Below, one piece after another: positions 8,105 through 33,032 of a DNA stretch of 64,000 bases. The stretch is from assembly GCF_900120195.1 (NCBI RefSeq), contig NZ_LT635539.1, forward strand, positions 1,686,649 through 1,750,648, given 5' to 3'. The notes beneath the pieces were generated by a model, which saw nothing but the letters and a program-made list of their open reading frames with translations, searched no databases and had not been told where the DNA came from. Within the stretch, counting starts at the first letter, position 1. The number at the start of each line of letters is the position of its first letter. The stretch is from Blautia sp. Marseille-P3087. Lineage in GTDB: Bacteria > Bacillota > Clostridia > Lachnospirales > Lachnospiraceae. Both the position numbers and the translations under genes were made by a program.

Positions 8105-8186
8105 TGAATATTTCTTAAATAAAATGTGTCCACCCCATTACCCGGCATAAAATCTCCGCTCTCTGTTCGTTTCATCTAACTTATCC

Positions 8187-8215
8187 TTGTCAACCCTCAT
8201 TCAATATGCTATGAT
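8187..8215 (+). promoter_or_regulatory. Promoter of the NusG-II/Gx transporter unit
   Basis: TTGTCA (8187-8192) and TATGAT (8210-8215) with a 17-base spacer; each matches consensus at 5 of 6. The -10 overlaps a Fur-like palindrome at 8211-8221. Confidence 0.7.
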
Positions 8216-8221
8216 AATCAT
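8211..8221 (+). promoter_or_regulatory. Fur-like operator core overlapping the -10
   Basis: ATGATAATCAT is a perfect palindrome and equals the central part of the classical 19-bp Fur box. The flanks match poorly, so this is a suggestive partial site. A stronger Fur-like site lies upstream of the other unit of the same cluster (17604-17618). Confidence 0.4.
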
Positions 8222-8283
8222 CGAATCACACGCTGTTTCTTATATAACAGCACTATTTTAACTGAAAGCTGAGGAATTTTTGT

Positions 8284-8655
8284 TTGAAGAAAAAAGAACT
8301 GACTTTCATCATCGGCATCGTTGTTTTTGCCCTGATCCTCTGGGCTGGCATGTACTTTGTCCGACGCGGTCACTATGGGACTGTCCGAATCACGGTAAAC
8401 GGTGAAGAATACGGCACCTACTCCCTTGCAAAGGATCAGGTGATCCGCATCAATGATACCAATGTATGTGAAATAAAAGACGGAGAAATCCACATGACGG
8501 AAGCCAACTGTCCGGATCACCTCTGCATGAAACAAAAAGCTGTCGACAGTACAGGCGGTACAATCGTCTGCCTGCCAAATAAGGTTGTCATAGAAGGCGA
8601 AAAAGGAGACTCCTCCGCTGAAGAAGATACCCCTGAATTTGACACTGTCGTCTGA
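8284..8655 (+). CDS. NusG domain II-containing membrane-anchored protein
   Basis: A 123-aa protein with one N-terminal membrane segment (residues about 6-26) followed by an extracytosolic beta domain of the NusG domain II family (VRITVNGEEYGTYSL, then INDTNVCEIKDGEI, NCPDHLCMKQ and GGTIVCLPNKVVIEG). The CPDHLC motif and a third cysteine (IVCLP) are typical of the family. The start is TTG at 8284, 7 bases after GAGGAA. In gut Firmicutes this family sits beside Rnf-type complexes, ApbE and Gx transporters, and it is unrelated in role to the elongation factor NusG. Its exact job is unknown. Confidence 0.8.
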   Translation: MKKKELTFIIGIVVFALILWAGMYFVRRGHYGTVRITVNGEEYGTYSLAKDQVIRINDTNVCEIKDGEIHMTEANCPDHLCMKQKAVDSTGGTIVCLPNKVVIEGEKGDSSAEEDTPEFDTVV

Positions 8656-8741
8656 ATATAAATACCTGTAACCGACCACCAGATCATAATCGTGGTTCTG
8701 CCGGTCAGTTACAGCCAGTCTACTAATAAAGGATGTCACAT

Positions 8742-9227
8742 ATGAATCAGAAAAAGCTTTCATATCTCGGCCTTTTTGCCGCAGTTGCTATCATTTTCGG
8801 TTATGTAGAATCACTGATTCCTTTTTTTGCAGGAATCCCGGGAATGAAGCTTGGACTTGCCAATCTGGCAGTTCTTTTTATACTGGAGAAATATACATGG
8901 AAAGAAGCTGCGCTTGTTTCTATCGTCCGTATCATCGTGATCGGATTTATGTTCGGAAACCTGTTCAGCATTCTCTACAGCCTTGCGGGCGCTGCACTCA
9001 GCCTCGCAGTTATGACTTTCATGAAGAACAAATCCGGATTCAGCATCCTCGGCATCAGTGTTGCAGGAGGTGTTTCCCACAACATCGGTCAGCTCATCAT
9101 CGCAGGTCTTATCACGATGACTTCCGGACTGATCTACTATGCACCGGCACTTTTGATCTCCGGTGTCATTACCGGACTTCTCATCGGAACGCTGACAAAC
9201 GAGGTACTGAAACGTATCCACTTCTAA
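8742..9227 (+). CDS. Gx transporter family membrane protein (heptaprenyl-diphosphate synthase component I-like)
   Basis: A 161-aa membrane protein with about five helices and the family features GYVESLIPFFAGIPGMKLGLANL and GVSHNIGQL. The start at 8742 is 8 bases after AAAGGA; an in-frame ATG at 8733 lies inside that ribosome binding site. The Pfam name 'heptaprenyl diphosphate synthase component I' is historical; such proteins look like small S-component-type transporters. They recur beside NusG-II, FMN-binding and ApbE genes, as here, so a role in flavin or quinone supply to the extracytosolic redox chain is a fair guess. It shares a transcript with the NusG-II gene and ends at a bidirectional terminator. 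Confidence 0.82.
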   Translation: MNQKKLSYLGLFAAVAIIFGYVESLIPFFAGIPGMKLGLANLAVLFILEKYTWKEAALVSIVRIIVIGFMFGNLFSILYSLAGAALSLAVMTFMKNKSGFSILGISVAGGVSHNIGQLIIAGLITMTSGLIYYAPALLISGVITGLLIGTLTNEVLKRIHF

Positions 9228-9235
9228 ACAATAAT

Positions 9236-9285
9236 AAAAATGCAGAGTACTGATATCCACAATCAATACTCTGCATTTCTTTTTG
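9236..9285. terminator. Bidirectional intrinsic terminator
   Basis: AAATGCAGAGTA (9238-9249) pairs with TACTCTGCATTT (9267-9278), flanked by A-runs on the left and CTTTTTG on the right. It serves the convergent Gx transporter and apbE genes. Confidence 0.85.
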
Positions 9286-9287
9286 AA

Positions 9288-10331
9288 TTACTGCAACTCC
9301 TTAACTGTATAGGTATTCTTCATCAATTCAAAGCGTTCTTTCATCCCGGAAGTCAGGTAAATATTCTTATCCTCATCCACGAACACTGCATCTGCATTAT
9401 ATTTTTCCAGAAGTTTCAATGCATCATCCATTCCCAGTACAAAGCATGCAGTAGAAAGTCCATCCGCAAAAAGTCCGCTGTCACAGATGACTGTGACAGA
9501 ATCCAGACCGTTCCACACCGGATATCCGGTCTTCGGATCAAGGATGTGATGATAGCGTTTCCCGTCTTCTATGAAATATTTCTCATAGTCTCCAGACGTC
9601 GAAAGAAATTCCCCGTCATTCAATGTGATTGCACCGAGATAGTCCCCCTCCGGATCACGCGGATCAGTGAGCGCTACTTTCCAATCAGAACCATCCGGTT
9701 TTTCGCCATAAGCCATTACACTGCTGCCGCCGAGATTCAGAATCATTCCTGACACATCCGTCTGTGTTTTCAGAAAGTCCGAAACCACATCACACCCGAT
9801 TCCCTTTCCGGTTGCACCGAGGTCAAGTGTTGCACCTTTTTCCAGTGTCACTTTATCTCCATCCAAAGAAACTTTACCATAACCTACATCTTTCAGAAGC
9901 TCGTCCAGTTCTGACTGTTCCGGCACATGCGGATTCTCTCCGGCAATATCCCACAGACGTATGATCTTGCCTATCGTCGGGTCGAATGCCCCGTCTGAAT
10001 CCTGTGCAAGCTGAAAAATCTTTTTCAGGTAACCGGCAAGTTCATCGGATACTTCTGCCGTTTCACCGGAAGCTGCATTTAACTTCGCGATCTGCGAATT
10101 CTCGTCAGTCCATGAAAGCAGTTCTGTCTCAATTTCGCGGATCTTATCACCGACAGTCGCATTCAGATCCTTACCTGTTGTATACAGTGTCTCTGAGACG
10201 ACTGTATCCATTGCAAAATCAGTATTCGTATATTTCTGTATATCAGCGTCTGCCATTACCGGCACCGCAGCCAGCATGAAACAGCTCATTCCACAGAGCA
10301 GACTGGTCACAAACTTCTTTTTATTTCTCAT
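9288..10331 (-). CDS. apbE: Exported FAD:protein FMN transferase (ApbE)
   Basis: A 347-aa flavin transferase that splits FAD and attaches FMN to threonine in SGAT-type motifs of exported proteins. A signal peptide spans residues 1-27 (hydrophobic core, cleavage near VMADA). Family motifs follow: FAMDTVVS, then GAFDPTIGKIIRLWDI, LDLGATGKGIGCDVV, LNLGGSSVMAYG, and DPKTGYPVWNGLDSVTVIC with the later GLSTACFVLG. The start overlaps the upstream 4Fe-4S gene by 11 bases. Export matches the position of its likely substrates, the FMN-binding proteins encoded at 11112-13543. It is the last gene of the unit. Confidence 0.95.
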   Translation of the reverse strand: MRNKKKFVTSLLCGMSCFMLAAVPVMADADIQKYTNTDFAMDTVVSETLYTTGKDLNATVGDKIREIETELLSWTDENSQIAKLNAASGETAEVSDELAGYLKKIFQLAQDSDGAFDPTIGKIIRLWDIAGENPHVPEQSELDELLKDVGYGKVSLDGDKVTLEKGATLDLGATGKGIGCDVVSDFLKTQTDVSGMILNLGGSSVMAYGEKPDGSDWKVALTDPRDPEGDYLGAITLNDGEFLSTSGDYEKYFIEDGKRYHHILDPKTGYPVWNGLDSVTVICDSGLFADGLSTACFVLGMDDALKLLEKYNADAVFVDEDKNIYLTSGMKERFELMKNTYTVKELQ

Positions 10332-11115
10332 TTTTCTCCATTTCCCGGACCTTTACCGGCCCAATCTGTATATTTTTACGCGGACAGGTCACTTCGCAGG
10401 CATGACAGCAGATACATTCTCCCGAAAAAGGAGTGTCTCCGTCAATCTCCAGATGTGCCGGACAGCGCTTTTTGCAAAGTCCACATTTCGACGGACATTT
10501 TTCACAATTTCTGTGAAACAGCGCCGTCGGCAATATCGGCATCATTGCAAAAACAGCTCCCATCGGGCAAAGAAACTGACAGAAAAAACGCTCCTGCGTG
10601 CACATCCCGATCAGAATCAGAATAAATAACGCAATCCCGATCTTATAGGAAGCATTCGGAAGTTTTCCTGCGGTCAGCATGGAAAAAACATCCCACGGAC
10701 TCATGCCCTGAAGATTTGCATACCATCCGTTCAGTATGGAAAGCATCAAAAAGGCCAGAAGAATGTATTTTACTTTCTGAAGCATCCGCACCACTTTTTC
10801 CGTATAACCATGACGTCCTTTTTTATGGAAAACCTTCTGCCGGATAAAAAGTGTCAGCTCATACATGGCATCACCAAGTGAACCAAACGCGCAGGCATAT
10901 CCGCAGAAATGACGTCCAAACAAAATCGTAATTACCAGCAGGACTCCCGTCACATCAAGGAAAGAGTTCCATGTGATCGGCTGGTGCGCAGCAAGCACCT
11001 GAAAAATAGATTTGATCCCTGCAAATGCTGTGGAAAAGAGTGCCGGATAAAAGATGAAAAACGCAAGCTGTATCGCAGCCCGGATCAGCCGGACCTTTCT
11101 CTGCCTCTTTTTCAT
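10321..11115 (-). CDS. NapH/CcoG-like membrane 4Fe-4S electron-transfer protein
   Basis: A 264-aa polytopic membrane protein with about five helices. Two cytosol-facing cysteine motifs of the NapH/NosR/RdxA kind are visible: GRHFCGYACAFGSL and RFFCQFLCPMGAVF. The C-terminal 65 residues are cysteine-rich and ferredoxin-like (NCEKCPSKCGLCKKRCP, then CICCHACEVTCPRKNI), enough for two [4Fe-4S] clusters. The ORF starts within the stop of the FMN-binding gene (ATGA overlap) and ends inside apbE. It is the obvious electron conduit across the membrane between cytosolic donors and the covalent flavins. The donor (ferredoxin, NADH or quinol) is not encoded here. Confidence 0.85.
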   Translation of the reverse strand: MKKRQRKVRLIRAAIQLAFFIFYPALFSTAFAGIKSIFQVLAAHQPITWNSFLDVTGVLLVITILFGRHFCGYACAFGSLGDAMYELTLFIRQKVFHKKGRHGYTEKVVRMLQKVKYILLAFLMLSILNGWYANLQGMSPWDVFSMLTAGKLPNASYKIGIALFILILIGMCTQERFFCQFLCPMGAVFAMMPILPTALFHRNCEKCPSKCGLCKKRCPAHLEIDGDTPFSGECICCHACEVTCPRKNIQIGPVKVREMEKNEK

Positions 11116-11687
11116 TCGTTTTCCGCCTTTCCAAGGGCGTCAACAACAGCGTTGATGATACCGGTAGAACTGAATGTAGCGCCTGATACAGTATCCACAT
11201 CTGTGCTCTGTGCAGATATGATCGAGCTTATCACACTCTGTGCCTGAGAAAGATATGCAGAATCTTCCCCTGATGCACCTGTCACCTGAATATCGGTGAT
11301 CTCATCGTCTTTCAGTGTTACCTGAACCTCGATCGCACCGCCGAATCCCTGTGCAGAACCGGTATAAGTACCGTCCTTGTAGAAATTCTCGGAATCATCC
11401 GTACTTTCTGCATCTTCACTGTCTGCCGCGCCTTCTTTGACTGCATCGTCTTTTGTGTCAGTCTCTACCTGTGCTTTTGCAGTTTTCTGATTTTGGGCTG
11501 CTTCTTCAAGAGCGGCAAGCATTTCTTTTTGCTGTTCTTCAAGTGTATCCACACGTTTCTGTAACTGTGTGATCTCCTGAGTTTCCTGTTCCTGTGTATC
11601 TTTTTTCTGCATAGAATTATAGCCTATTACAGACGCCAGAATCAATAGAAGACACAAAACTCTCATACAAAAACTCTGGTATTTCAT
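11112..11687 (-). CDS. FMN-binding domain protein with membrane anchor and coiled coil
   Basis: A 191-aa protein. Residues 8-22 form an N-terminal membrane anchor, residues 30-75 a charged heptad-type coiled coil (QLQKRVDTLEEQQKEMLAAL), residues 78-100 an acidic linker, and residues 102-188 a single FMN-binding domain. The domain shows YKDGTYTGSAQGFGG, the beta strands VQVTLKDDEITDIQV, and the flavinylation motif DTVSGATFSS with T171 the predicted FMN attachment site. AGGAGA precedes the ATG. Overlap with the membrane iron-sulfur gene implies tight coupling. Likely the first flavin acceptor after the membrane protein; that order is inference. Confidence 0.9.
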   Translation of the reverse strand: MKYQSFCMRVLCLLLILASVIGYNSMQKKDTQEQETQEITQLQKRVDTLEEQQKEMLAALEEAAQNQKTAKAQVETDTKDDAVKEGAADSEDAESTDDSENFYKDGTYTGSAQGFGGAIEVQVTLKDDEITDIQVTGASGEDSAYLSQAQSVISSIISAQSTDVDTVSGATFSSTGIINAVVDALGKAENE

Positions 11688-11722
11688 TCCATCTTCTCCT
11701 TTTATAACCTGTATTTCTGCAA

Positions 11723-13543
11723 TTACTGCCTTTTCGCCTGACTCAGTGCATTTCGAAATGCTTGTAAGATTCCGTTTGAAGAATAAGTTGCTCCGCTCAC
11801 AGCATCCACCCCGTCTGCTGACTGATTATTCAGAATCTGACCGTAAATACCATTCCATGCATCGGTAAAATAATCTGCATCGTCTATCGTATCATAAGAA
11901 GCAGCTGTAATTTTTCCGCCGGATATTGTTACATTCACAGTTACACTTCCCACGCCGTAGTTCCCATCGCCACTTCCGCTGTAATTGCCATCCACATATT
12001 GTCCTTCCGGTATCGGAGCAGGTGTTTCCGTTGGATTTGGTGTCGGAGTTAAATTTTCTGTCGGAGCAGGTGTTGGCGTAACAGTTGGTGTAGCTGTTGG
12101 TGCCGGAGTCGCTGTTGGTTTCGGTGTTGCCGTCGGCTTCGGTGCCGGCGGTTCCGTTGGGGTCGGAGTTGCAGTCGGTACTGCCGTTACCTTCGCACTT
12201 TCCAGTGCACTTCTTGCAGCTTCAAGGATTCCGTTTGAGGAAAATGTTGCTCCGCTCACCGTATCAATTCCATCAGCACTCTGTTTTTCCAGAATTGCCG
12301 GCTGTAAATACCGCCATGCCTTTCTGAAATAGGACATCGTATCACTGTTGGTGTTATTGACCTCTGTAATTTTTCCATCCTTGATCGTCAGTGTGATTGT
12401 TACAAATCCGGAATATCCCCGTGCCCGTCCACTGTAAGTTCCATCCTTATAAAGTTTATTATCAGTATCGGATGAATCTCCTGTATCAGGTTTCACCGGT
12501 ACAGGTGTTGCCGTTGGAGTCGGTGTCGGAGAAGTCGTTTTCTTTACAGCTGCTTTTTCTAATGCTTTCTGTGTGGCTTCAAGAATGCCATTAGAAGAAA
12601 AAGTTGCTCCGCTGACCGTATCTACTCCGTATACTGCCTGTTTTTTCAGAATTGCCGGCCTGATTTTTGCCCAGGCTTTGCCGAAGTATTCTTTCGTATC
12701 TGTATTCGTATTTGTAATGACTGTAATTTTTCCGTTTTTAATCGTAAAAGTCACCTTTACCGGACCGTCAAATCCCTCTGCCTGCGCAGTATAAGTACCA
12801 TCCTTATAGGCAACATCCCCTGTCGGTTTTGAAATCACAACAGGTTTTGTGGTACTTGTATTTGTTTTCTTTTTCTTCGTATTCTTGTCTGTTTCTACAG
12901 TGGAAACCTCAGCAGCACCTGCCTTTGAAAGTGCATTCTGAACGGCCTGAATGATTCCGTTTGATGAGTACGTTGCACCGCTGACTGCATCCACATTCGG
13001 CGTCTGACCCGCAAGGATTTTGCTGACAACACCTCTTGCCGAAGCAAAATAAGACGGGGTTTCTCCTGATGCATCAAGAATGTCTATCCCTGTGATCTTG
13101 CCGTCCGCAACAGTCACCTGTACCGTGACAGTTCCGCCAAATCCTGTACCGCTTCCCTGATAAGTTCCGTCTTTATATCCGCCTTCCGGAACCTCTGTCG
13201 TCGGAGTTGTCGTACTTCCCTGACCTTCTGCTGACGTTTTCTTCGATTCATCCGGTAATGCTTTTGCAGCAGCTTTTTTGATACCCCTTTTTTTCTTTTT
13301 GTTTTTTGCGGCAGTCGTTGTACTCTTATCAGATAAAGTATTATCGTCAAAATATGCTGCATTTAGCAAACCAGACAATTCTCCGGCATCTTTTATTTCC
13401 ATACCAGCTGACACTTTCGTAAGTCCCTCAGCCGATTTTCCCTGCACTGCTGTGACAGTCACTGCCGCAATTACAGCTGCAGCCGGAAGGAGTTTGAGCA
13501 GATTTTTTTTGTCATGTATATTTTTTCTGTCTTTTTTGTTCAT
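11723..13543 (-). CDS. Multi-flavin protein with four FMN-binding domains
   Basis: A 606-aa exported protein. ATG 13543 follows CAGGAGA; an upstream in-frame start lacks a site. A hydrophobic N-terminal helix (residues about 18-33) is followed by a lysine-rich stretch and four FMN-binding domains at roughly 122-210, 246-332, 364-451 and 515-604. Each opens with YKDGTY or YVDGNY and ends with D-x-VSGAT-Y/F-SSNGI; predicted FMN sites are T191, T314, T433 and T586. Linkers are Thr/Pro-rich; the last (about 454-512) is a long TPTP repeat of wall-spanning type. Domains 2 and 3 are close duplicates. Such flavin arrays are thought to act like multiheme cytochromes. No sortase motif or lipobox is seen. 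Confidence 0.9.
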   Translation of the reverse strand: MNKKDRKNIHDKKNLLKLLPAAAVIAAVTVTAVQGKSAEGLTKVSAGMEIKDAGELSGLLNAAYFDDNTLSDKSTTTAAKNKKKKRGIKKAAAKALPDESKKTSAEGQGSTTTPTTEVPEGGYKDGTYQGSGTGFGGTVTVQVTVADGKITGIDILDASGETPSYFASARGVVSKILAGQTPNVDAVSGATYSSNGIIQAVQNALSKAGAAEVSTVETDKNTKKKKTNTSTTKPVVISKPTGDVAYKDGTYTAQAEGFDGPVKVTFTIKNGKITVITNTNTDTKEYFGKAWAKIRPAILKKQAVYGVDTVSGATFSSNGILEATQKALEKAAVKKTTSPTPTPTATPVPVKPDTGDSSDTDNKLYKDGTYSGRARGYSGFVTITLTIKDGKITEVNNTNSDTMSYFRKAWRYLQPAILEKQSADGIDTVSGATFSSNGILEAARSALESAKVTAVPTATPTPTEPPAPKPTATPKPTATPAPTATPTVTPTPAPTENLTPTPNPTETPAPIPEGQYVDGNYSGSGDGNYGVGSVTVNVTISGGKITAASYDTIDDADYFTDAWNGIYGQILNNQSADGVDAVSGATYSSNGILQAFRNALSQAKRQ

Positions 13544-13624
13544 GCTGTCTCCTGTCTGTTTAACGTACAAAGGCAGGGGCTGTCCGGAAACGGCCCCCGT
13601 CTTTGCTTTTTCCTGAATATGATC

Positions 13625-16600
13625 TTATTTTACAGTTACTTTGAATCTTGCTATCATGCCATTGCATTTGACAGTGATTGTTGCCGTACCTCTTCTGATG
13701 CCTTTTACAACACCCCTGGAAGTTACGGTTGCAATACGCTTGTTACTGCTTGTATAAGTAACTTTTCCGCTCGGAACCGCACTTACTCTGATCCTGGTTG
13801 TTTTACCTCTCCTGACAGTTGCTGCAGTTCTTGCAAGTTTCAGAGAAGCATTTCTTACTCTGACAGTTACGACTTTTTTATATTTACCAACCTGAACTGT
13901 AATTCTGGCGTTTCCGGCTTTTCTTGCTCTTACAACGCCTCTTGAATCTACAGTTGCAATACGTCTGTCACTTGTTGTAAATTTTGCATTTCCGGATACA
14001 CCGATTTTTGTTACAGTAATTTTTGTTGCTGTCTGACCTTTGGTGTAAATGGTAGAAGCTGCTGCTTTTACTGCAATTCCCGGATTCTTGACAGTTACTT
14101 TGCAGGTTACTTTGCATTTTCCGGCTGTAGCTGTGATCACTGCTGTTCCGGCTTTTTTTGCTGTTACAACACCTTTGGAATCTACGGTTGCAACATTTTT
14201 GTTGTTTGTTGCATATTTTACTGTTCCACCAAGTGCAGATGTCGCTTTAAGTGTGTATTTTGCCGGTGTTCCGCCTGCATATACAGTAACTGCTGTTTTG
14301 TTGATAGTCATTGCATTTTTTACAGTTACTTTATATGTTGCTGTCTTCCCGCCCAGAGTTGCTGTAATGTTGGCTGTGCCTGCTGCTTTGGCTGTTACAA
14401 CACCTTTGGAATCTACGGTTGCAACTTTTGTGTTGCTGGATTTCCATGTTACAGTACCTTCCAGGTTTGTAGTTGCTTTAAGAGTTGTAGATGTTTTGTC
14501 CTGTGTATAAAGTGTTCCTGATGTTGCATTGAGTTTGAGTTCTGCTTTTACAAGACCGTCGATTGCTTCTCTTAAGTGACCAATCTGCTCTTCAATTCCA
14601 TACTGGGTCTGGTTTGCGATATTAGCCAGCATGTCTTCGCATTCTTCCAGCTCGTTTACAAGAGTATCCCAGCTGTCCGGTGTGTAGTCTGCCTCTTTAA
14701 GTGCTTTTGCTTCCGCAATAATATTTTTTAGTGGTGTGGAATCTGCATCGCCTGCCGGTTTTGCAATATTTTCGTCTGTTGCCTGAAACCTAAATGTATA
14801 ATCGCTGTATCCCAGACCGTAAACGGTTACTTCCCAGTATCCTGTTCCGTCAGTATCTGCCGGAAGTTTGCAGCGTACAGAATCTGTCAGGCCAAGCTGA
14901 ATACCGTGGAATTTGTGCATCCAGTTGTCTGCCGCAAATTTTGTACCATAGCTCTGAAGTGCATTGCTGTATGTATCGTCATCACCATAATATGTCCATT
15001 TTACAGCCTGCATTGCACCACCGAGACCGCCATAGTTGCCTGTAAGGTCTACACGGAGGAATTCACCGTAGCTACCGCTTCCCGGCTTCATTTTAGTCGT
15101 AATGCCATCTGTTGTTTTCAGCGCTTCTCCCTTAAGGCCGGAAGTTGTTCCGTTTGCTCTTGCGCTGAATGTAAAGGTATCTCCGTCCTTTGTTGCTGTC
15201 TTAAGTCCGTTGGTATTTGCATTGACTTCTGCTGTTTCTTCATAAGCACTAAGGTTATTTTCAGCATAACCACCAAACAGTTTTTCGCCGTTTTCTACTA
15301 CTTTAAATGCCTTCTTGAATGCATCATAATCTGCTGTTTTTACTTTTACCGGAATATATTTCAGGCCGGTTACTTTATACTCAGTGACATCTATACCGTT
15401 TATTTTTCCTTTGCTGCAGGAAACAGTGCTTCCGTCTGTAAGAATCATTGTTGTTTTGTCTTTCCATCCGGCAAGTGCATAGGTCTTTCCGTTCGCATCG
15501 TAAACAGTTGCCATTGTCTGGAAACTTCCTCTGTGGAGACCATGGTTTGCAGTTGCTCTTGTGACAGCATCAAAACCGCCCATATCGCTTTCACCACGTC
15601 TGTCTTTGTCCTCAGAAGCTGAAGTATTTGTTGCTTCGTATACACCTTCAGATGCCCAGTACTGTTCCCATGTAAGTCCTGCGTATACGTATTTGTATTC
15701 ACCGGAATCCTGTGTAACGGTACCTGTAACATCATTAAATCCGGATGATGTCAGCTCTACATTGTAGCTTCCGCCATCACCTTTTGCAAATACTGCCGTA
15801 TTATTAACCTTTGCATCAAAGTTGACTGCACCTGTTTTCTCATCAAAAACTGTTTTGGCAATTTCACTGATGTTTGCTTTTTTTCCACCCAGTGCCTGTC
15901 CGTCGATTTTAATGGAAGTGATGTTTTTGATGTAATCTTTTGCTTCGTATATAGTGTCTCCATTCGGATCAATTTTTACCAGCTTATTGTCCTGAATGGC
16001 AAACTGAACTTTTGTTTCGTCAGCACTTAACACAATCGGAACTGTAATGTCTTCATACGGTGCTTCTGACTGATCTGTAAAAGTAAGAGTATAAGTTCCT
16101 ACTCCGGTCGTACTATTACTCCATGTATCACCATTTACTGTTAACATCTTTTTATCTTCATCGTATGTATATCCTGCATAAGCACCCTGTTCAAGCTCAT
16201 TGCCGTCGTATTTTACAGAAGAAAGTTTATAACTGGAAGTCTCCGGAACTTGATATGTCATCTGGACATTAGTTCTTCCATATCCTCTCTGATATGCAAC
16301 TTTTTCCTCCGGTCCGGTGATTCCCTGACCGTCTGCAAGTTTGTATTTGCAGAGAAGATTTGTCGGAATAACAATATCCGCACCATCTTTTACAAGATAA
16401 GTGATTTTTTTAATTGTCTTTCCTTCCAGTCCCTGGCTGCGTTTTGCATCAATTGTGTTACCATGTGGTTCCACAAAACCGTCTTTTACTGCAAAAGCAA
16501 TTTTGCCGGTTTTAAGCCACAGGTTCTGGGAATGTTCCATTCCATATTTTTCACCGTCAGATGTTTCAAAGATAACACCCATCATGTTTGCTGTTTTTGG

Positions 16601-17470
16601 CTGATCTGGATTTTCATCTCCGAACTCTACGATGACCTCATAATTTCCCCATGCAGATGATGTTGAAATGGAAGAATTGATCTTAAGTTCTTTTGTCTCT
16701 GTCTTCATTGCAGTAAGTGTTCCGTTACCGTTCAGGACTTTATATTCGCCGGATTCCGGAGCAGTTTCACTTACATTCTGAAGATTTCCGATAATAGTAA
16801 GGAGCTGGTTGGAGCAACTCTTGCCCTCTTCAACTGCTTTCAGCGCATCATTATAAAGACTTTTCGGAACTGCAATATTTACATCCCTGATACCCTCAAG
16901 AGTCACACTTCCGTTTTCTGTGTTTTCTGTATAGTAGGAAGTCTCATATTTTTTAGATTTATTGTTTGTGCAGCTTGTAACTGCATCATACATACCTTCC
17001 TCGCGATAACCTGCTTCTGTCACAGGATCTGCTGCATCCAGCTGCATTTCTGTATTCTGCTGTACATCATTCATTTCACCATAAAAGAAATCGGCATACG
17101 GAATGTTTGCTGTACCATATACAAATTCACTTTCAGCAGGAGTTTCTTCACCATCTGCCGCAAAAGCATCTGCCTCACCCTCTGCGCCAAAAACATCTTC
17201 TGCCCCGGAAGTTTCTTCTGTCGTATCAGCTTCTGTGTCCTCTGTATTTTCTTCGGCATCCTCGATTGTAATATCTGCCTCATCTTCTGCCGCATCAACT
17301 TCTGTGTCCTCTATCTCCACATCCGTTGCTTCGTCTTCTGCTCTTTCGTCCAGAACTACTTCTTCATCAGAGAATTCTGCTGCAAAAGCTGCAGACGGCA
17401 TACCAGTCATCGCTACTGTCGCACTGAGGACAACCGGTGCAATTTTCTTTAACAAATTATTGTTAGCCAT
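13625..17470 (-). CDS. Large secreted surface protein with FIVAR-like and four Big2 domains
   Basis: A 1281-aa secreted protein with a clear signal peptide (residues 1-30, cleavage after AAFAA), a strongly acidic Glu/Asp/Thr region (32-110), two or three large beta-rich modules (about 160-905), a helical FIVAR-like segment (about 910-975), and four bacterial Ig-like (Big2) domains to the C-terminus, each with TVDSKGVVTAKxAGTAxIT-type cores. The central block containing GLTWEQYWASEGVY recalls Firmicute proteins annotated with Treponema Tp47 domains; that match is from memory and weak. No LPxTG. It is the first gene before the multi-flavin protein, with only a hairpin in the 81-bp gap, and its promoter region holds metal-regulator-like palindromes. 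It may be the extracellular substrate-binding partner. Confidence 0.8.
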   Translation of the reverse strand: MANNNLLKKIAPVVLSATVAMTGMPSAAFAAEFSDEEVVLDERAEDEATDVEIEDTEVDAAEDEADITIEDAEENTEDTEADTTEETSGAEDVFGAEGEADAFAADGEETPAESEFVYGTANIPYADFFYGEMNDVQQNTEMQLDAADPVTEAGYREEGMYDAVTSCTNNKSKKYETSYYTENTENGSVTLEGIRDVNIAVPKSLYNDALKAVEEGKSCSNQLLTIIGNLQNVSETAPESGEYKVLNGNGTLTAMKTETKELKINSSISTSSAWGNYEVIVEFGDENPDQPKTANMMGVIFETSDGEKYGMEHSQNLWLKTGKIAFAVKDGFVEPHGNTIDAKRSQGLEGKTIKKITYLVKDGADIVIPTNLLCKYKLADGQGITGPEEKVAYQRGYGRTNVQMTYQVPETSSYKLSSVKYDGNELEQGAYAGYTYDEDKKMLTVNGDTWSNSTTGVGTYTLTFTDQSEAPYEDITVPIVLSADETKVQFAIQDNKLVKIDPNGDTIYEAKDYIKNITSIKIDGQALGGKKANISEIAKTVFDEKTGAVNFDAKVNNTAVFAKGDGGSYNVELTSSGFNDVTGTVTQDSGEYKYVYAGLTWEQYWASEGVYEATNTSASEDKDRRGESDMGGFDAVTRATANHGLHRGSFQTMATVYDANGKTYALAGWKDKTTMILTDGSTVSCSKGKINGIDVTEYKVTGLKYIPVKVKTADYDAFKKAFKVVENGEKLFGGYAENNLSAYEETAEVNANTNGLKTATKDGDTFTFSARANGTTSGLKGEALKTTDGITTKMKPGSGSYGEFLRVDLTGNYGGLGGAMQAVKWTYYGDDDTYSNALQSYGTKFAADNWMHKFHGIQLGLTDSVRCKLPADTDGTGYWEVTVYGLGYSDYTFRFQATDENIAKPAGDADSTPLKNIIAEAKALKEADYTPDSWDTLVNELEECEDMLANIANQTQYGIEEQIGHLREAIDGLVKAELKLNATSGTLYTQDKTSTTLKATTNLEGTVTWKSSNTKVATVDSKGVVTAKAAGTANITATLGGKTATYKVTVKNAMTINKTAVTVYAGGTPAKYTLKATSALGGTVKYATNNKNVATVDSKGVVTAKKAGTAVITATAGKCKVTCKVTVKNPGIAVKAAASTIYTKGQTATKITVTKIGVSGNAKFTTSDRRIATVDSRGVVRARKAGNARITVQVGKYKKVVTVRVRNASLKLARTAATVRRGKTTRIRVSAVPSGKVTYTSSNKRIATVTSRGVVKGIRRGTATITVKCNGMIARFKVTVK

Positions 17471-17493
17471 GTTCTTCCTCCTCTTTCTTTTCC

Positions 17494-17509
17494 GTTAGTT
17501 TCTTCTAAC
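17494..17509 (-). promoter_or_regulatory. Palindromic operator candidate 1 (GTTAG-N6-CTAAC)
   Basis: GTTAG (17494-17498) and CTAAC (17505-17509) form an inverted repeat just upstream of the ribosome binding site of the 1281-aa gene. An identical-arm copy lies at 17553-17568, which argues for a protein binding site rather than chance. Confidence 0.5.
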
Positions 17510-17552
17510 CTATATTTTTATATCATAAATCAAAGTTCGTGTCTATATTATC

Positions 17553-17568
17553 GTTAGGTTTTTCTAAC
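17553..17568 (-). promoter_or_regulatory. Palindromic operator candidate 2 (GTTAG-N6-CTAAC)
   Basis: Same arms as the first copy. On the minus strand it lies between a weak -35 (TTCGAG) and a -10-like TAATAT with 17-base spacing, a position expected for a repressor. The half-sites resemble those of DtxR/IdeR boxes, but the spacing is different. Confidence 0.5.
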
Positions 17569-17603
17569 TCGAAACCGACTTTTTTTCTCAATAATTTTGT
17601 TAT

Positions 17604-17618
17604 TGATAATATTTATCA
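17604..17618 (-). promoter_or_regulatory. Fur-like box upstream of the surface-protein/flavin operon
   Basis: TGATAATATTTATCA matches the 7-1-7 Fur consensus TGATAATnATTATCA at 13 of the 14 defined positions. It lies 134 bases before the ATG at 17470, in an AT-rich promoter region. PerR and Zur boxes have similar form, so the metal is inferred. Confidence 0.6.
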
Positions 17619-17688
17619 TATAAAAGCAGTACAAAATACACTTGTTGCTTTTATTTGCATCTGGTCGCATCCTCGCGGAGCGTTTTTA

Positions 17689-17724
17689 CGTTATTGGAAC
17701 ATTACGAAGTAATTTCCTATAACG
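17689..17724. repeat. Imperfect 36-bp palindrome
   Basis: CGTTAT, GGAA and ATTAC pair in order with GTAAT, TTCC and ATAACG around a GAA loop, with single-base bulges. It directly abuts the terminator of the DNA glycosylase transcript. In the rest of the gap 17471-17789 the only sites seen are the palindromes listed separately. Confidence 0.6.
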
Positions 17725-17774
17725 CAAAAAAGAGACCTGCCGTTCCCTTCTAACAGGGAATGAAACAGGTCTCT
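17725..17774 (-). terminator. Intrinsic terminator of the glycosylase transcript
   Basis: On the minus strand AGAGACCTG ... CAGGTCTCT enclose an inner TTCCCT/AGGGAA hairpin and are followed by TTTTTTG. Confidence 0.85.
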
Positions 17775-17789
17775 GTATCTCACCATTTT

Positions 17790-18599
17790 TCAGTTTTTAT
17801 TCAGTTCGTAATAAAAAATATACTGCTGCATGATACCTCTCATGCCATGATACCGACGGTTCGGGAAACCTCTCCTGTAATGCTCATCAAGTACCTGGCG
17901 GATATGGGTATCAACCGGAAATGCATCCATATGATGCAGTGCAAAAAGACAAATGCAGTCTGCTACCTTTTCCCCCACGCCGCTCAGTTTCATAAGCTCC
18001 TGCTTCGCACGGCGATAATAACGGAATCGGTAGATTCGCTCCAGCGAAATCTCTCCGTCCAGAATACTTCGAGTCGTCTCCGCAATATAACGTGCCCGGT
18101 ATCCCATTCCCAGTTTACGTAAATCTTCTTCAGATACGCCCGCAAGCTGCTCCGGGGTCGGAAATGCGTAATATTCCTTTTCGCCGGAGATTTTTTTCTC
18201 TCCATATGCTTCGCACAGCCGCTCTACACATCCCCTGATCCGGGAGATATTATTCTGCTGTGAGATCAGAAATGTAATGATCATTTCCCACAGATCCTGC
18301 TGAAGAATACGGATGCCGTTTCCACACTCTGCAGCTGCCATCAGATAAGCATCTCTTGGATTTATCTTTGCTATATAGCTGCTGTAATCCGCATCAATGT
18401 CAAAGTATGGCACCCAGTAGCAGATAAACTCCATGTCACTGCAGTAAAAATTTACGATACTGCCTTCCTGTGCCATTTTCAGGTACTTGTCTCCTGCGAT
18501 CAGTTCATAAGTATTTTCTTCTGTCTCATACATCCGAAAGCACTGCCCGGACTGACAGATTTCCTTCAGGCTGAAATTATCCAGCTCTACTGTAATCAT
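17790..18599 (-). CDS. 8-oxoguanine DNA glycosylase/AP lyase (OGG1-type, HhH-GPD)
   Basis: A 269-aa base-excision repair enzyme. The N-terminal OGG domain (residues 1-90: NFSLKEICQSGQCFRM, typical FxxxxxxxSGQxFRW form) precedes the HhH-GPD catalytic domain. The hairpin and active site read LSGVGEKVADCICLF, with the catalytic lysine after GVGE, and AFPVDTHIRQVL supplies the catalytic aspartate. This pattern (K plus D) marks a bifunctional OGG glycosylase rather than AlkA, although pipelines often call it a 3-methyladenine glycosylase. It removes 8-oxoguanine from DNA in the cytoplasm. It ends the - strand run with the DUF6472 and RfbF genes. Confidence 0.88.
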   Translation of the reverse strand: MITVELDNFSLKEICQSGQCFRMYETEENTYELIAGDKYLKMAQEGSIVNFYCSDMEFICYWVPYFDIDADYSSYIAKINPRDAYLMAAAECGNGIRILQQDLWEMIITFLISQQNNISRIRGCVERLCEAYGEKKISGEKEYYAFPTPEQLAGVSEEDLRKLGMGYRARYIAETTRSILDGEISLERIYRFRYYRRAKQELMKLSGVGEKVADCICLFALHHMDAFPVDTHIRQVLDEHYRRGFPNRRYHGMRGIMQQYIFYYELNKN

Positions 18600-18617
18600 T
18601 TGTTTTCTCCGTTTCCC

Positions 18618-18803
18618 TTACATCTGATGGCGCACTACCCGGTACTCATCTCCGTTTCGGTAATACGGACATTCCTTATATTCTGTGCTGACGAAACGAT
18701 AGTATTCATCTTCGTCCAGGTTTACATCACAATAATAGCTCTCACTGTCCTCATCGTACACATAATTCGCACAGTAATCGCAGCTCGTTGCCTTTCCGCT
18801 CAA
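18618..18803 (-). CDS. Small DUF6472-like Cys-rich protein
   Basis: A 61-aa protein with CDYC near the N-terminus, a later YYCDVNLDEDEYYRF segment and ECPYYRNGDEY. Four cysteines (CxxC plus two) suggest one bound metal ion. The TTG at 18803 is chosen because GGAGGAAG lies 5-6 bases upstream; a TTG six codons earlier would place that site inside the coding frame. It is widespread in Lachnospiraceae as a protein of unknown function. It sits 18 bp from the glycosylase and 21 bp from rfbF, so it is probably co-transcribed with them. Confidence 0.7.
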   Translation of the reverse strand: MSGKATSCDYCANYVYDEDSESYYCDVNLDEDEYYRFVSTEYKECPYYRNGDEYRVVRHQM

Positions 18804-18824
18804 AAGTCTTCCTCCAGCCAAATA

Positions 18825-19601
18825 TTATTTCCAGATCTTCCATGGGGCTTCGCCACTCTGCCAGAGTTCTTCCAGCATATTTTTCTCGCGAAGCGTATCC
18901 ATGCACTGCCAGAAACCTTTATGCTTGTATGCATTCAGCTCTCCCATTCGTGCCGCTTCTACAAGAGGTCCTTTTTCAAAGACAGTCTCATCGCCATCGA
19001 TCAGATCGATGATTCCCGGCTCCAGCACCATAAATCCGGCATTGATCCAGCCACCGTCTTCTTTTTTCTTTTCTCTGAAGTTTGTAATGGTTCCGTCTTT
19101 TTCAATATCAAGGATACCGAAACGTCCACCCGGCTGTGCCGCCGTGAGCGTCGCCATTTTTCCGTGTGATCTGTGATATTCCAGAAGTTCTTTAATGTTG
19201 ATATCAGCCACACCATCACCGTAAGTCATCATGAATGTGTCTTCTTCGAGATATTCACGGACACGTTTGATACGACCGCCGGTCATCGTGTTCAATCCTG
19301 TATCAACAATAGTCACCTTCCAGGGCTCCAGCACATTATTGTGCACGATCATCTTATTTTCCTGTGTGAAGTCAAAGGTGATGTTGCTGTTGTGAAGATA
19401 ATAGTCTGCAAACCATTCTTTAATGACATGCTGCTTATATCCGCAGCAGATTACAAACTCATTAAATCCATAAGCGGAATACATCTTCATAATATGCCAG
19501 AGAATCGGTTTCTCCCCGATTTCTATCATAGGCTTTGGTTTCAGATGGCTTTCCTCACTGATTCTGGTGCCGAATCCACCTGCTAAAATCACAACCTTCA
19601 T
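18825..19601 (-). CDS. rfbF: Glucose-1-phosphate cytidylyltransferase
   Basis: A 258-aa nucleotidyltransferase making CDP-glucose from CTP and glucose-1-phosphate, the first step to CDP-3,6-dideoxyhexoses. The N-terminal signature is VVILAGGFGTRISEE with LKPKPMIEIGEKPILWHI; TYGDGVADI supplies the metal-binding aspartate and GGWINAGFMVLEP is the sugar-binding region. The length is the family norm. The usual partners (CDP-glucose 4,6-dehydratase rfbG, rfbH) are absent from the window, so the enzyme is an orphan here. It heads a - strand group with a small Cys-rich gene and the glycosylase. Confidence 0.93.
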   Translation of the reverse strand: MKVVILAGGFGTRISEESHLKPKPMIEIGEKPILWHIMKMYSAYGFNEFVICCGYKQHVIKEWFADYYLHNSNITFDFTQENKMIVHNNVLEPWKVTIVDTGLNTMTGGRIKRVREYLEEDTFMMTYGDGVADINIKELLEYHRSHGKMATLTAAQPGGRFGILDIEKDGTITNFREKKKEDGGWINAGFMVLEPGIIDLIDGDETVFEKGPLVEAARMGELNAYKHKGFWQCMDTLREKNMLEELWQSGEAPWKIWK

Positions 19602-19689
19602 ATATTCTCTCCAATCCGTTCGTTACATTGTAATCAATACTGTTATTCTAATACAAAGCAGGCAAAAAAGAAAGACCAACGTTAGCAGA

Positions 19690-19730
19690 AGCAAAAGAAA
19701 GCCCCCACAGCTTCCGCCATGAGGGTTTCC
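19690..19730 (-). terminator. Likely terminator after the Big2 remnant
   Basis: On the minus strand GGAAACCC (19723-19730) pairs with GGGCTTTC (19697-19704) with one mismatch, followed by TTTTG. Confidence 0.5.
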
Positions 19731-19745
19731 TTTCATTAATTTTGT

Positions 19746-19994
19746 TTATCTTACTGTGATCCTGATGTTGTATTTCTTGTTTCCGGACCTCACAGTAATG
19801 ATAGCTCTGCCTTTATTCTTTGCTTTGATCACACCAGATCTGCTGACAGTTACAATCTTCTTGTGGGAAGTATACCATGTAACCTTCTGTAAACTTGTCA
19901 CCGGTGTAAGTGTAGCTTTGAGTTTCAGTCTCTGTCCGCGTTTCAGTGTTGCACTCTTGCCCTGAATCTTTCCGGTTGCTGTGATGGAACTACA
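19746..19994 (-). pseudogene. C-terminal remnant of a Big2-domain surface protein
   Basis: The minus strand reads open for about 82 codons, between an in-frame TAA just upstream of 19994 and a TAA at 19746-19748, without a usable start or ribosome binding site. The translation is a near-complete Ig-like Big2 domain: KSATLKRGQRLKLKATLTP, then VTWYTSHKKIVTVSRSGVI, KAKNKGRAIITV and a final IRITVR. It resembles the last domain of the 1281-aa protein at 13625-17470 and ends in the same fashion. Probably the tail of a former surface-protein gene whose 5' part was deleted. Confidence 0.7.
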
Positions 19995-20012
19995 TTATTT
20001 CATATTTGTTTA

Positions 20013-21404
20013 TTATTTATTGGCTTCTTTTGCTGCTTTTTCAGCCTTTTCTTCTGACCAGAGTTTCTCAGCTACCGGAGCCCATTCTTCTGCGTAATGT
20101 ACACATTTACCACAAAGATGCTCTGCTGTCTCATTAGATTGAAGGTCTGTGGAGTGTGCACCGGATTCTTTTACGATACGCTGCAGAATCTCTGGATTCT
20201 CCAGCATCGGGCACGGACGGAGCATATTGTCATTGAACGGCTGGTTGTCATGATAAGCCATGAACAGCGGCTGTTTCAGAATCTCAAGGATCGTGTTCTC
20301 ATGAATATTTCCGTTAGAATAGTGGATAAATACGCATGGTTCTGCATCACCGTTTGCATTGATATGGAAGTAGTTTCTTCCTCCGGCGATACATCCGCCT
20401 ACAAACTCACCGTCATTCTGGAAGTCCATAGTGAAGATTCCAGGACCGTGTTCCATGTTACGGATCTCTCTTACACGGTTCTTTACATAAATTCTCTGTT
20501 CCGGATTCAGAAGCAGATCAACAGATGCTGCATTTCCAACAGGCATGTAATGGAAGTACAGTGCGTAACGGCATCCTTTTTCTACAAGCATCTGAATGAA
20601 GTCTTCGCTTGTAACGCTCTTGTAGTTGGCACTTGTGTAGCAGATAGATGTACCGAATACAAGACCGTGCTCTTTCAGAAGATCCATTGCATGCATAACT
20701 TTATTGTATACACCTTCACCACGACGCATATCGTTGACATCCGGCTCACCCTCAACGCTTAATGCAAGGAACAGGTTGCCGACTTCCTGCATCTGTTTGC
20801 AGAGTGCTTCATCAACAAGTGTACCATTTGTGTAAGCAAAAAATACACAGTCGTTATGTTTTCTGCAGAGTTCGATGATATCTTTCTTTCTTACCATCGG
20901 TTCTCCACCTGTCATCATATAGAAGTAGACACCGAGTTCTTTACCCTGTGTTACGATGGAATCCATATCATCAAAGGAAAGATTCAGCTTGTTTCCGTAT
21001 TCTGCTGCCCAGCATCCTGTACAATGCAGGTTACATGCACTGGTAGGATCCATCAGAATGATCCACGGGATGTTGCATTTATGTATTTCTCTCATCTCGT
21101 GAATGGTCTTTGTTCCATTATAAAAGGCTTCAAATCCAAGGTTCATCAATGTTGTCTTCAGAACGTTCGGATGAAGATCCTGAACCATAGATGTGATATA
21201 ACGGTTCAATGTATATTCCGGATTACAGGCAACTTTTCTCAGGTAATCCCAGTTTACGCCCTTTCCGAAATCTTTTAAATACTTCTCAGCAGTATCGATC
21301 AGTTTTTCATATGCCGCTTCAGGATTCTTGTGCACCTGAGCGACTGCATAATCAGCAACCCCTGCAAAAACTTTCTTTGCTGCTGCATGTTTAAGTTTGT
21401 TCAT
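20013..21404 (-). CDS. Radical SAM protein (SPASM-like C-terminus)
   Basis: A 463-aa radical SAM enzyme. The cluster motif CNLHCTGC (C124, C128, C131) follows a 120-residue N-terminal helical extension. MTGGEPMVRKKDI is the GGEP motif binding SAM's amino group. The C-terminal part has cysteines in GGCIAGGRNYFHINANGDAEPCVFIHYS (SPASM-like), RPCPMLENP and LCGKCVHY, probably for an auxiliary [4Fe-4S] cluster. ATG 21404 is placed 8 bases after GGAGG; earlier in-frame codons have no site. The overall type resembles uncharacterised Clostridial radical SAM proteins. No peptide substrate or partner is adjacent, so the reaction is unknown. Confidence 0.88.
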   Translation of the reverse strand: MNKLKHAAAKKVFAGVADYAVAQVHKNPEAAYEKLIDTAEKYLKDFGKGVNWDYLRKVACNPEYTLNRYITSMVQDLHPNVLKTTLMNLGFEAFYNGTKTIHEMREIHKCNIPWIILMDPTSACNLHCTGCWAAEYGNKLNLSFDDMDSIVTQGKELGVYFYMMTGGEPMVRKKDIIELCRKHNDCVFFAYTNGTLVDEALCKQMQEVGNLFLALSVEGEPDVNDMRRGEGVYNKVMHAMDLLKEHGLVFGTSICYTSANYKSVTSEDFIQMLVEKGCRYALYFHYMPVGNAASVDLLLNPEQRIYVKNRVREIRNMEHGPGIFTMDFQNDGEFVGGCIAGGRNYFHINANGDAEPCVFIHYSNGNIHENTILEILKQPLFMAYHDNQPFNDNMLRPCPMLENPEILQRIVKESGAHSTDLQSNETAEHLCGKCVHYAEEWAPVAEKLWSEEKAEKAAKEANK

Positions 21405-21482
21405 TGGTATTTCCTCCATCTCTGGCAATCATTATTTTTATTGTTTACATTATATTCAGATTCTGCTTCTGTTTTCAATGGA

Positions 21483-30314: not shown

Positions 30315-30360
30315 CGCTGCTTATAATATTTTTATGGAAGAAAACGAAGGCTTATCCTGC

Positions 30361-32970: not shown

Positions 32971-33032
32971 TTCTGAATCCTCCTGTTTTTCCTCTTATGA
33001 TATGATCCTTATAATTTAGTCCGATAAACAAT

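Follow-up and report, generated by a model that had tools for sequence, protein, structure and literature searches.

Organization of the flavin gene cluster

We analysed a stretch of 64,000 nucleotides (nt), referred to as the window, from the 3.30-Mb genome of Blautia sp. Marseille-P3087 (99.98% complete), in which an initial annotation had recognised a possible iron-responsive, flavin-based extracellular electron-transfer (EET) cluster. All genes of the cluster were found where they had been placed, with matching Pfam families, including the secreted protein of 1281 amino acids (aa) ahead of the flavin genes. On the minus strand, the cluster consists, in this order, of the gene for the 1281-aa surface protein (13625-17470; signal peptide by eye; PF14888, 6e-69; PF14889, 2e-62; four Big_2 repeats, PF02368, 3e-25), a secreted four-flavin protein (11723-13570; four stretches of the flavin mononucleotide (FMN)-binding family PF04205, 9e-59), a membrane-anchored one-flavin protein (11112-11687; PF04205, 8e-14; coiled coil by eye), a NapH-like membrane Fe-S protein (10321-11115; PF12801, 7e-10; TIGR02163, 5e-16, far under the curated cut-off) and an exported ApbE, the flavin adenine dinucleotide (FAD):protein FMN transferase (9288-10331; PF02424, 3e-79). 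Hydrophobic N-terminal segments are present in ApbE and in both FMN proteins. Because the gaps between the five genes are just 54, 35, −4 and −11 nt, they probably form one operon.

Inspection of the two FMN proteins confirmed all five SGAT flavinylation motifs, each of which is an exact D-x-V-SGAT. The number given to the modified threonine of the one-flavin protein (T171) stands, and T191, T314, T433 and T586 of the four-flavin protein become T200, T323, T442 and T595 when its upstream TTG start is used. With four PF04205 stretches and four motifs, the latter has the sequence signature of a multi-flavinylated protein (more than one FMN_bind domain with the motif), and its first domain matches PDB entry 8p2b, domain 1 of CbFMN4 (1e-10). 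Covalent attachment of the flavin to threonine is confirmed in the crystal structures of CbFMN4 and SaFMN3, according to the accessible text of PMC10339131. ApbE has one match in the whole genome, at this locus, and the FMN_bind genes of the genome fall into two sets, those of the cluster and rnfG of an rnfCDGEAB run; given this single match and the two sets, the ApbE of the cluster presumably serves Rnf too. The run lies on the window's contig at about 405,900-410,930, about 1.29 Mb away (RnfG by its Pfam FMN_bind match, the other subunits by eye). The earlier statement that no Rnf is present is thus correct for the cluster, where neither RnfB nor other Rnf subunits were found, but not for the genome. 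As an aside, the Faecalibacterium genome behind one of the loci described below (L058, genome G215) contains 12 FMN_bind matches on 7 contigs, several of them in large proteins, an indication that its flavin carriers have multiplied.

The cluster has the composition by which NapH-like flavinylated systems are recognised, with PF12801 within five genes of ApbE and FMN_bind and a signal peptide in the cluster. In an alignment of 43 sequences, the two CxxxC pairs of the NapH-like protein (C71/C75 and C179/C183) and the two 4Fe-4S motifs at its C-terminus (C207/211/214/218 and C234/237/240/244) are invariant. No UbiA prenyltransferase was found in the genome, in a search that was positive in 14 of 14 control genomes; a quinol donor to NapH is therefore disfavoured, and menaquinol in particular would be an unlikely electron donor. 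The simplest inference is direct reduction of the NapH-like protein by ferredoxin, or by a flavodoxin whose gene shares the operator-like motif described below. Two NapH matches in relatives (L082 in G169, and G185:C10:90859-91647) contain one internal stop (TGA and TAG), which may reflect sequencing error, a pseudogene or the end of the match.

Convergent with the operon, on the plus strand, lie a gene for a NusG_II protein (8284-8655; PF07009, 7e-29) and a gene previously described as a 'Gx transporter' (8733-9227; Hpre_diP_synt_I, PF07456, 1e-38), with a terminator-like stem-loop (9236-9280) between the latter and apbE. The NusG_II protein is presumably EetA, and its place beside eetB is in keeping with this. 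The claim that neither EetA nor EetB is present did not survive, because the 'Gx transporter' belongs to the EetB family: PF07456 is the definition of eetB, the gene for an ECF-S-like subunit that binds FAD and that Listeria requires to export flavin, in the accessible text of PMC9973259, where the word 'NusG' is absent. The same text counts 3,328 genomes in which eetB adjoins eetA and 2,169 in which it adjoins apbE, some NapH-like systems included. The absence of Ndh2 was borne out: among the 10 proteins of the Pfam neighbourhood scan (8284 to 21428) there was no Ndh2-like domain and no membrane NADH dehydrogenase K03885, the operational criterion for EET.

A Tp47-like protein heads the operon

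Judged by sequence comparison, the 1281-aa protein is a relative of Tp47, the 47-kDa antigen of Treponema pallidum, a kinship that had escaped the initial annotation. Its two Tp47 domains match the Pfam families PBP-Tp47_a (2e-62) and PBP-Tp47_c (6e-69). A phmmer search against PDB matched the Tp47 structure 1o75 at 2e-13 over residues 589-892 (1.6e-27 with a family profile), and a protein search returned at least 7,982 relatives among at least 7,983 scored candidates. Domain a comprises residues 591-744 (15239-15700, minus strand) and contains the invariant motif D634-x-V-[TS]-R-A-T640-x-x-H643-G-x-x-R647, which is mostly kept, as D-x-V-[TS]-R-A-T-x-x-H-G, in the printed alignment with 1o75; domain c comprises residues 751-905 (14756-15220, minus strand), with invariant W850-M851-H852. 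Residues that never change in 44 aligned relatives are D634, V636, R638, A639, T640, H643, G644, R647, W850, M851 and H852. Besides the window piece and one protein from the database, this main alignment contains 42 of the 48 loci described below (L036, L037, L045, L060, L061 and L063 were left out). The Tp47_c domain occurs once in the genome. The assignment to the Tp47 family thus rests on domains a and c, and penicillin binding by the family is here putative. To our knowledge, the cellular role of Tp47, a diagnostic syphilis antigen, is unsettled.

Upstream of domain a, an N-domain spans residues of about 120-420 (16211-17113, minus strand); its first part appears to be a second copy of Tp47_a that has diverged (hhalign P = 9e-6, probability 83), and a tblastn match to it was found in 30 of 48 loci. 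Separate secreted proteins with the N-domain motif were observed in two further places, one behind the operator-like motif beside a ZIP gene (L131:2350-3186) and one at the end of a flavin operon (L127:2984-4810).

In 13 of the 44 relatives, FMN_bind is found (E 0.01 or better; 3.5e-16 in L033) within the same polypeptide as Tp47, a fusion that we consider the most direct sign that flavins and Tp47 may work together. Sortase-like tails and a signal peptide were seen by eye in some relatives, FIVAR, fn3 or Big_2 domains were matched, and the Tp47 protein is probably bound to the wall or surface. The sequence D-A-V-T-R-A-T of Tp47_a is similar to the flavinylation motif D-A-V-S-G-A-T but has Arg in place of Gly, a likeness for which profile comparison gives no support as homology. 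Tp47_a as a hidden flavinylation domain was not supported, since its profile aligns with that of FMN_bind over 10 residues (P = 0.019, probability 2.5%), as was the corresponding relationship of the N-domain (P = 0.23).

Conservation of the module

Co-occurrence of these genes across related genomes, on which the initial annotation had made its reading depend, was observed both in a survey of the genus and in named genomes. Within the genus, Tp47_c was detected in 13 of 64 genomes (12 of the 34 of good quality), and the window's NapH matched at E < 1e-100 in the same 13, with two more genomes showing weak hits near 1e-29 (hits at 1e-25 or better were listed). The probability of this agreement by chance is 8e-14 if the genomes are taken as independent, which they are not, and is a guide only. 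The distance between the Tp47 and NapH genes in these 13 genomes is 2.0-6.0 kb, and Tp47, the four-FMN and one-FMN proteins, NapH, ApbE and EetB lie within about 12 kb in 13 of 13 stretches, with EetA in 8, a ZIP gene near the module in one and a DtxR-type gene in one. Beyond the genus Tp47_c is rare: of 147 genomes sampled from the order, 3 have it, and two of these belong to this genus.

Named genomes were also scanned, with the Tp47 protein as query, and yielded 49 loci, one of which (L080) was dropped as a match to the Big_2 part only. Of the remaining 48, 46 encode Tp47_a/c; the other two (L036 and L037) are outside the 46-locus counts. The loci are mostly from Lachnospiraceae, with others from Faecalibacterium, Thomasclavelia, Collinsella and other Coriobacteriia, and several are on the same contigs as genus members, so that the two counts overlap. 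In the stretches examined around the 46 loci, FMN proteins were found in 42, NapH in 41, ApbE in 34, EetB in 24 and EetA in 20; the contig ends soon after Tp47 in L043 and L045, and L051 has just 940 bases before Tp47. A census of 823 open reading frames (ORFs) in the 48 loci showed that genes outside the module recur in at most 6 of them (by a longest-ORF rule, which loses some true genes in G+C-rich loci).

Three loci (L043, L045 and L067; Anaerostipes) have no flavin genes in the stretch beside Tp47, and a multi-FMN gene lies elsewhere in their genomes; the L067 genome has an unlinked run of ApbE, four-FMN, one-FMN and NapH genes with the motif GTTAG-N6-CTAAC in front. Although the Tp47 gene of Anaerostipes is not linked to its flavin operon, the same motif precedes both. 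In two loci (L049:8457-9851 and L050:7142-8593), NapH is replaced by a multi-helix membrane protein of 464 and 483 aa with a C-terminal FMN_bind domain. By eye, the membrane part of this protein resembles a ferric reductase, and Pfam gives no informative match for it (a marginal DUF874 in L050). Mirror-tree comparison of distances gave r = 0.54 for Tp47 and NapH (42 sequences each; best of 500 shuffles 0.18), 0.35 for Tp47 and ApbE and 0.71 for NapH and ApbE (32 sequences each), values that shared ancestry alone could yield.

An operator-like motif shared with iron-uptake genes

The description of the cluster as iron-responsive was supported, though by other evidence than the Fur-like box ending at 17618: the better evidence is the palindrome GTTAG-N6-CTAAC, present in two copies upstream of the operon, the nearer (17494-17509) between a −10-like element (by eye) and the start codon, and the other at 17553-17568. 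In the window genome this motif has 8 sites, compared with 2 for the reversed pattern. One of them (L016) overlaps a TTGACA-17-TATACT element in front of feoA-feoA-feoB and is flanked on its opposite side by a DtxR-type gene; two are before Tp47, two at ZIP genes (one with mntP), one at a DUF3793-flavodoxin pair beside a P-type ATPase, and two at genes without an evident metal role. In the 48 loci (956 kb), there are 35 motif sites, compared with 0-5 for 29 palindromes of the same letters, and the enrichment is seen at a spacer of 6 only. Among the 45 of 46 Tp47 ORFs with at least 200 bases upstream, the exact motif precedes 16 (controls, 0) and the motif with at most one mismatch precedes 26 (controls, at most 5); the exact motif is found upstream of 9 of 365 other ORFs of at least 200 aa. 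Per locus, an exact site lies before a module gene in 22 of 48 and one with at most one mismatch in 37 of 48, both of these being counts without a control.

Of the 38 exact sites in five genomes, 20 lie immediately upstream of feoAB, DtxR/Fur, flavodoxin-DUF3793, ZIP, Nramp or module genes. The corresponding fractions are 6/8 in the window genome, 6/10 in Anaerostipes (Tp47, flavin operon, feoAB, DtxR/Fur, DUF3793-flavodoxin and Nramp), 4/13 in Faecalibacterium (DUF3793, flavodoxin, Tp47 and ZIP), 2/2 in a Coriobacteriia genome (Tp47, and feoB just behind feoA) and 2/5 in Anaerobutyricum hallii (DUF3793-flavodoxin and Tp47/ApbE), and the reversed pattern has 2, 2, 0, 1 and 2 sites in the five genomes. 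A palindrome common to feoAB and a regulator gene, as expected of a DtxR-type regulon, was found at L016, at L117 with L119, and at L150, where it lies between feoA and feoB. Taken together, these sites suggest a metal-responsive and most likely iron-responsive regulon, with both the regulator and the metal inferred.

DUF3793 and/or flavodoxin genes stand behind the motif at L010, L114, L115, L120 and L149, in four genomes (the window genome, Anaerostipes, Faecalibacterium and Anaerobutyricum), and because of this recurrence DUF3793 looks like an iron-limitation protein. In Faecalibacterium duncaniae, ferrous sulfate represses feoB and a flavodoxin gene rises with feoAABC, according to the accessible text of PMC10781979, and 'FMN' is absent from the main text of that paper. 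A methyltransferase gene follows the motif in Anaerostipes (L130:1508-2296; Pfam Methyltransf_11), and a methyltransferase-like gene (by eye) follows it in Faecalibacterium (L131:422-1090), at a site that adjoins a ZIP gene.

The Fur-like 7-1-7 palindrome TGATAAATATTATCA (17604-17618, minus strand) lies 35 bp upstream of the operator-like copy at 17553-17568. It is the only exact TGATAANNNTTATCA in the genome and so points to no regulon, which disfavours Fur as the regulator as far as the exact form, the only one searched, can tell. Upstream of the eetA-like gene there is a near-operator, GTTCG-N6-CTAAC (8165-8180), with one mismatch to the motif, and eetA is preceded by this same one-mismatch form in the relative L140. 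A promoter-like TTGTCA-17-TATGAT for eetAB (8187-8215, plus strand) is a consensus match only, and such sites are no commoner in the region than in shuffled sequence. On the far side of the eetA-like gene are a Na/Ca exchanger and, by eye, SecA and a nitroreductase. The window contains no Rfam match at gathering score that would indicate riboswitch control, and horizontal gain was rejected on composition, the G+C content of the operon (0.41-0.46) being like that of its surroundings. Elsewhere in the window, two nearly coextensive open frames lie on opposite strands, at 30334-32976 (plus, 880 aa) and 30361-32970 (minus, 869 aa); the minus-strand frame is probably the real gene, since the plus-strand frame has no Pfam match.

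A proposed role in reductive iron acquisition

We give somewhat better than even weight to the reading that the cluster would encode a metal-regulated, most likely iron-starvation-induced, system for reductive iron acquisition. In such a system, a DtxR-type repressor would release the operon under iron scarcity, EetB would export FAD, and ApbE would attach FMN to the five SGAT threonines. A cytosolic flavodoxin or ferredoxin would then reduce the C-terminal 4Fe-4S clusters of the NapH-like protein, and electrons would pass through the membrane to the one-flavin protein and then from flavin to flavin of the four-flavin protein, ending at ferric iron or haem on the wall-associated Tp47 protein. 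The likely product would be Fe(II), because the motif ties the module to feoAB, and the freed Fe(II) could enter by FeoB, whose operon carries the same motif. In the best reading, Tp47 would be a surface receptor or redox partner of the flavin chain in iron acquisition rather than in respiration.

Several observations weigh against this proposal. For a cell starved of iron, the several Fe-S clusters of a NapH-like protein are a heavy expense, and no iron transporter recurs in the cluster in the census of 48 loci. L036 and L037 combine the flavin module with an N-domain surface protein without Tp47_a/c, and Pfam names the Tp47 domains penicillin-binding, the holding of iron or haem by them being putative only. 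An exact site before a module gene is lacking in 26 of 48 loci, and even a one-mismatch site in 11 of 48; 18 of the 38 exact sites in the five genomes do not immediately precede any gene whose part in metal handling or in the module is evident. The MntP, ZIP and Nramp neighbours could mean manganese, and we infer both the identity of the regulator and the metal sensed (iron or manganese).

The flavin-based extracytosolic chain fed by a NapH-like Fe-S protein, as envisaged in the initial annotation, fits the anatomy of the cluster, but iron assimilation is a more probable function than respiration with an external acceptor. As a respiratory system, the cluster would be a terminal sink that re-oxidises fermentation cofactors via external Fe(III), flavins or organic acceptors. 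EetB, ApbE and the flavoproteins are parts of the EET system of Listeria, and multi-flavin proteins have been proposed as long-range carriers. However, the operator-like motif is common to the module and to feoAB, DtxR, flavodoxin and metal transporter genes, no Ndh2-like domain was found among the scanned neighbours, a menaquinone route is not expected in a genome without UbiA, and no fumarate-reductase-like domain is among the Pfam matches of the cluster; we therefore regard respiration as unlikely, though it is the strongest of the alternatives.

Scavenging of haem or haemoglobin, in which the surface protein, with its Tp47 and HID domains, would strip haem and the flavins would reduce the haem iron for release or handing on, is a slightly weaker candidate. 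With an E-value threshold of 0.01, the family Shr-like_HID (PF07550) matches 15 of the 44 Tp47 proteins (best 1.4e-17). In Shr, haemoglobin is bound by HID2 (accessible text of PMC10912661), and the Tp47_a/c domains contain invariant Met-His and further His residues. However, HID in the 1281-aa protein itself scores 17.0 bits, under the Pfam cut-off of 22.3, and phmmer with two HID stretches found no Shr structure, both of which also tell against reductive iron acquisition as proposed above. No NEAT domain was found in the 1281-aa protein or among the 25 of 44 Pfam families listed for its relatives, and no haem transporter recurs beside the module in the census of 48 loci.

Two further explanations appear very improbable. 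A wall-active, carboxypeptidase- or beta-lactamase-like Tp47 protein that the flavins protect or drive would suit the Pfam name and the match to the Tp47 structure, but it leaves the FMN_bind fusions and the motif shared with feoAB unexplained. An alternative electron outlet that replaces iron-rich redox enzymes under iron shortage, without a function in iron uptake, would be in line with the flavodoxin and/or DUF3793 genes under the same motif in four genomes, as in iron-sparing responses, but the NapH-like protein itself has several Fe-S cluster motifs and the surface Tp47 protein would be left without a role.

Reductive iron acquisition, if correct, also bears on Tp47 itself. In Treponema pallidum subsp. 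pertenue (yaws), TP0572 is listed in a table as 'FMN-binding domain protein, putative membrane protein' (PMC5607219); in subsp. pallidum, Tp47 has the locus tag TP0574 (PMC11100446), each according to the accessible text of the source. Two locus tags apart, the two genes resemble the neighbourhood in gut bacteria, as far as locus numbering alone indicates. We tentatively suggest, with less confidence than we place in the iron-acquisition role of the cluster, that Tp47 may be an extracytosolic receptor and redox partner of the flavin chain that holds ferric iron or haem for reduction by FMN, rather than a penicillin-binding protein by trade, and that this role may be shared by gut Firmicutes, Coriobacteriia and perhaps, via TP0572, the syphilis spirochaete. 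Tp47 would thereby gain a new lead, as its relatives are tied to flavin electron transfer by neighbourhood, co-occurrence, a shared operator-like motif and domain fusion. In strict gut anaerobes, one kind of flavin system would gain a testable purpose, together with a regulon, a protein partner and flavodoxin as a candidate donor, and the same gene set recurs in many other bacteria.

Comparison with known systems

The NapH-like, multi-flavinylated class fed by EetB has been published (accessible text of PMC8238504 and PMC11334425), and the partnership of Tp47 with flavins and the operator were not found in the literature searched, which left most subscription papers outside and in which the Tp47-domain papers found were all on syphilis by title and abstract and the flavinylation papers listed do not contain the word Tp47. 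We judge the chain to be known and the surface partner and regulon to be newly recognised.

The NapH-like flavinylation systems of Meheust et al. 2021 (PMC8238504), as described in the accessible text, likewise place a PF12801 protein no more than five genes from ApbE and from a separate FMN_bind protein, an arrangement reported for 539 of 2,465 NapH-like clusters. Here, by contrast, no nitrite, nitrous oxide, organohalide or alcohol enzyme was seen, and a Tp47 surface protein and a metal-type motif are found instead; 'Tp47' and 'penicillin' have 0 occurrences in the main text of that paper. The flavin-linked iron assimilation systems with P19 and FTR1 in the same source likewise tie an FMN_bind protein to iron uptake, and P19 (PF10634) and FTR1 (PF03239) are absent from the Pfam results of the cluster. 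With the Listeria-type EET locus (PplA, FmnB, EetA/B and Ndh2), the cluster has ApbE (FmnB), the EetB family and FMN_bind proteins in common, whereas a NapH-like protein stands in place of Ndh2 (none among the scanned neighbours) and UbiA (none in the genome).

Shr of Streptococcus pyogenes is a large surface protein of similar length (1,275 residues), which the HID matches in the relatives recall, but the 1281-aa protein has no NEAT domain, its HID score is under the cut-off, and a flavin chain is present. Tp47 of Treponema pallidum (PDB 1o75) shares domains a and c with the protein described here, which, in contrast to the 47-kDa lipoprotein of Treponema, is secreted, large and extended by an N-domain and Big_2 repeats. 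Multi-flavinylated proteins (PMC8238504; CbFMN4 and SaFMN3, PMC10339131) have, in the accessible text, the same four FMN_bind domains and are likewise secreted and from Gram-positive bacteria, and their clusters are described in PMC8238504 as including large wall-binding proteins, FIVAR proteins among them, of unclear role. In comparison with these published clusters, the large partner is identified here as a Tp47 relative and a regulon is proposed.

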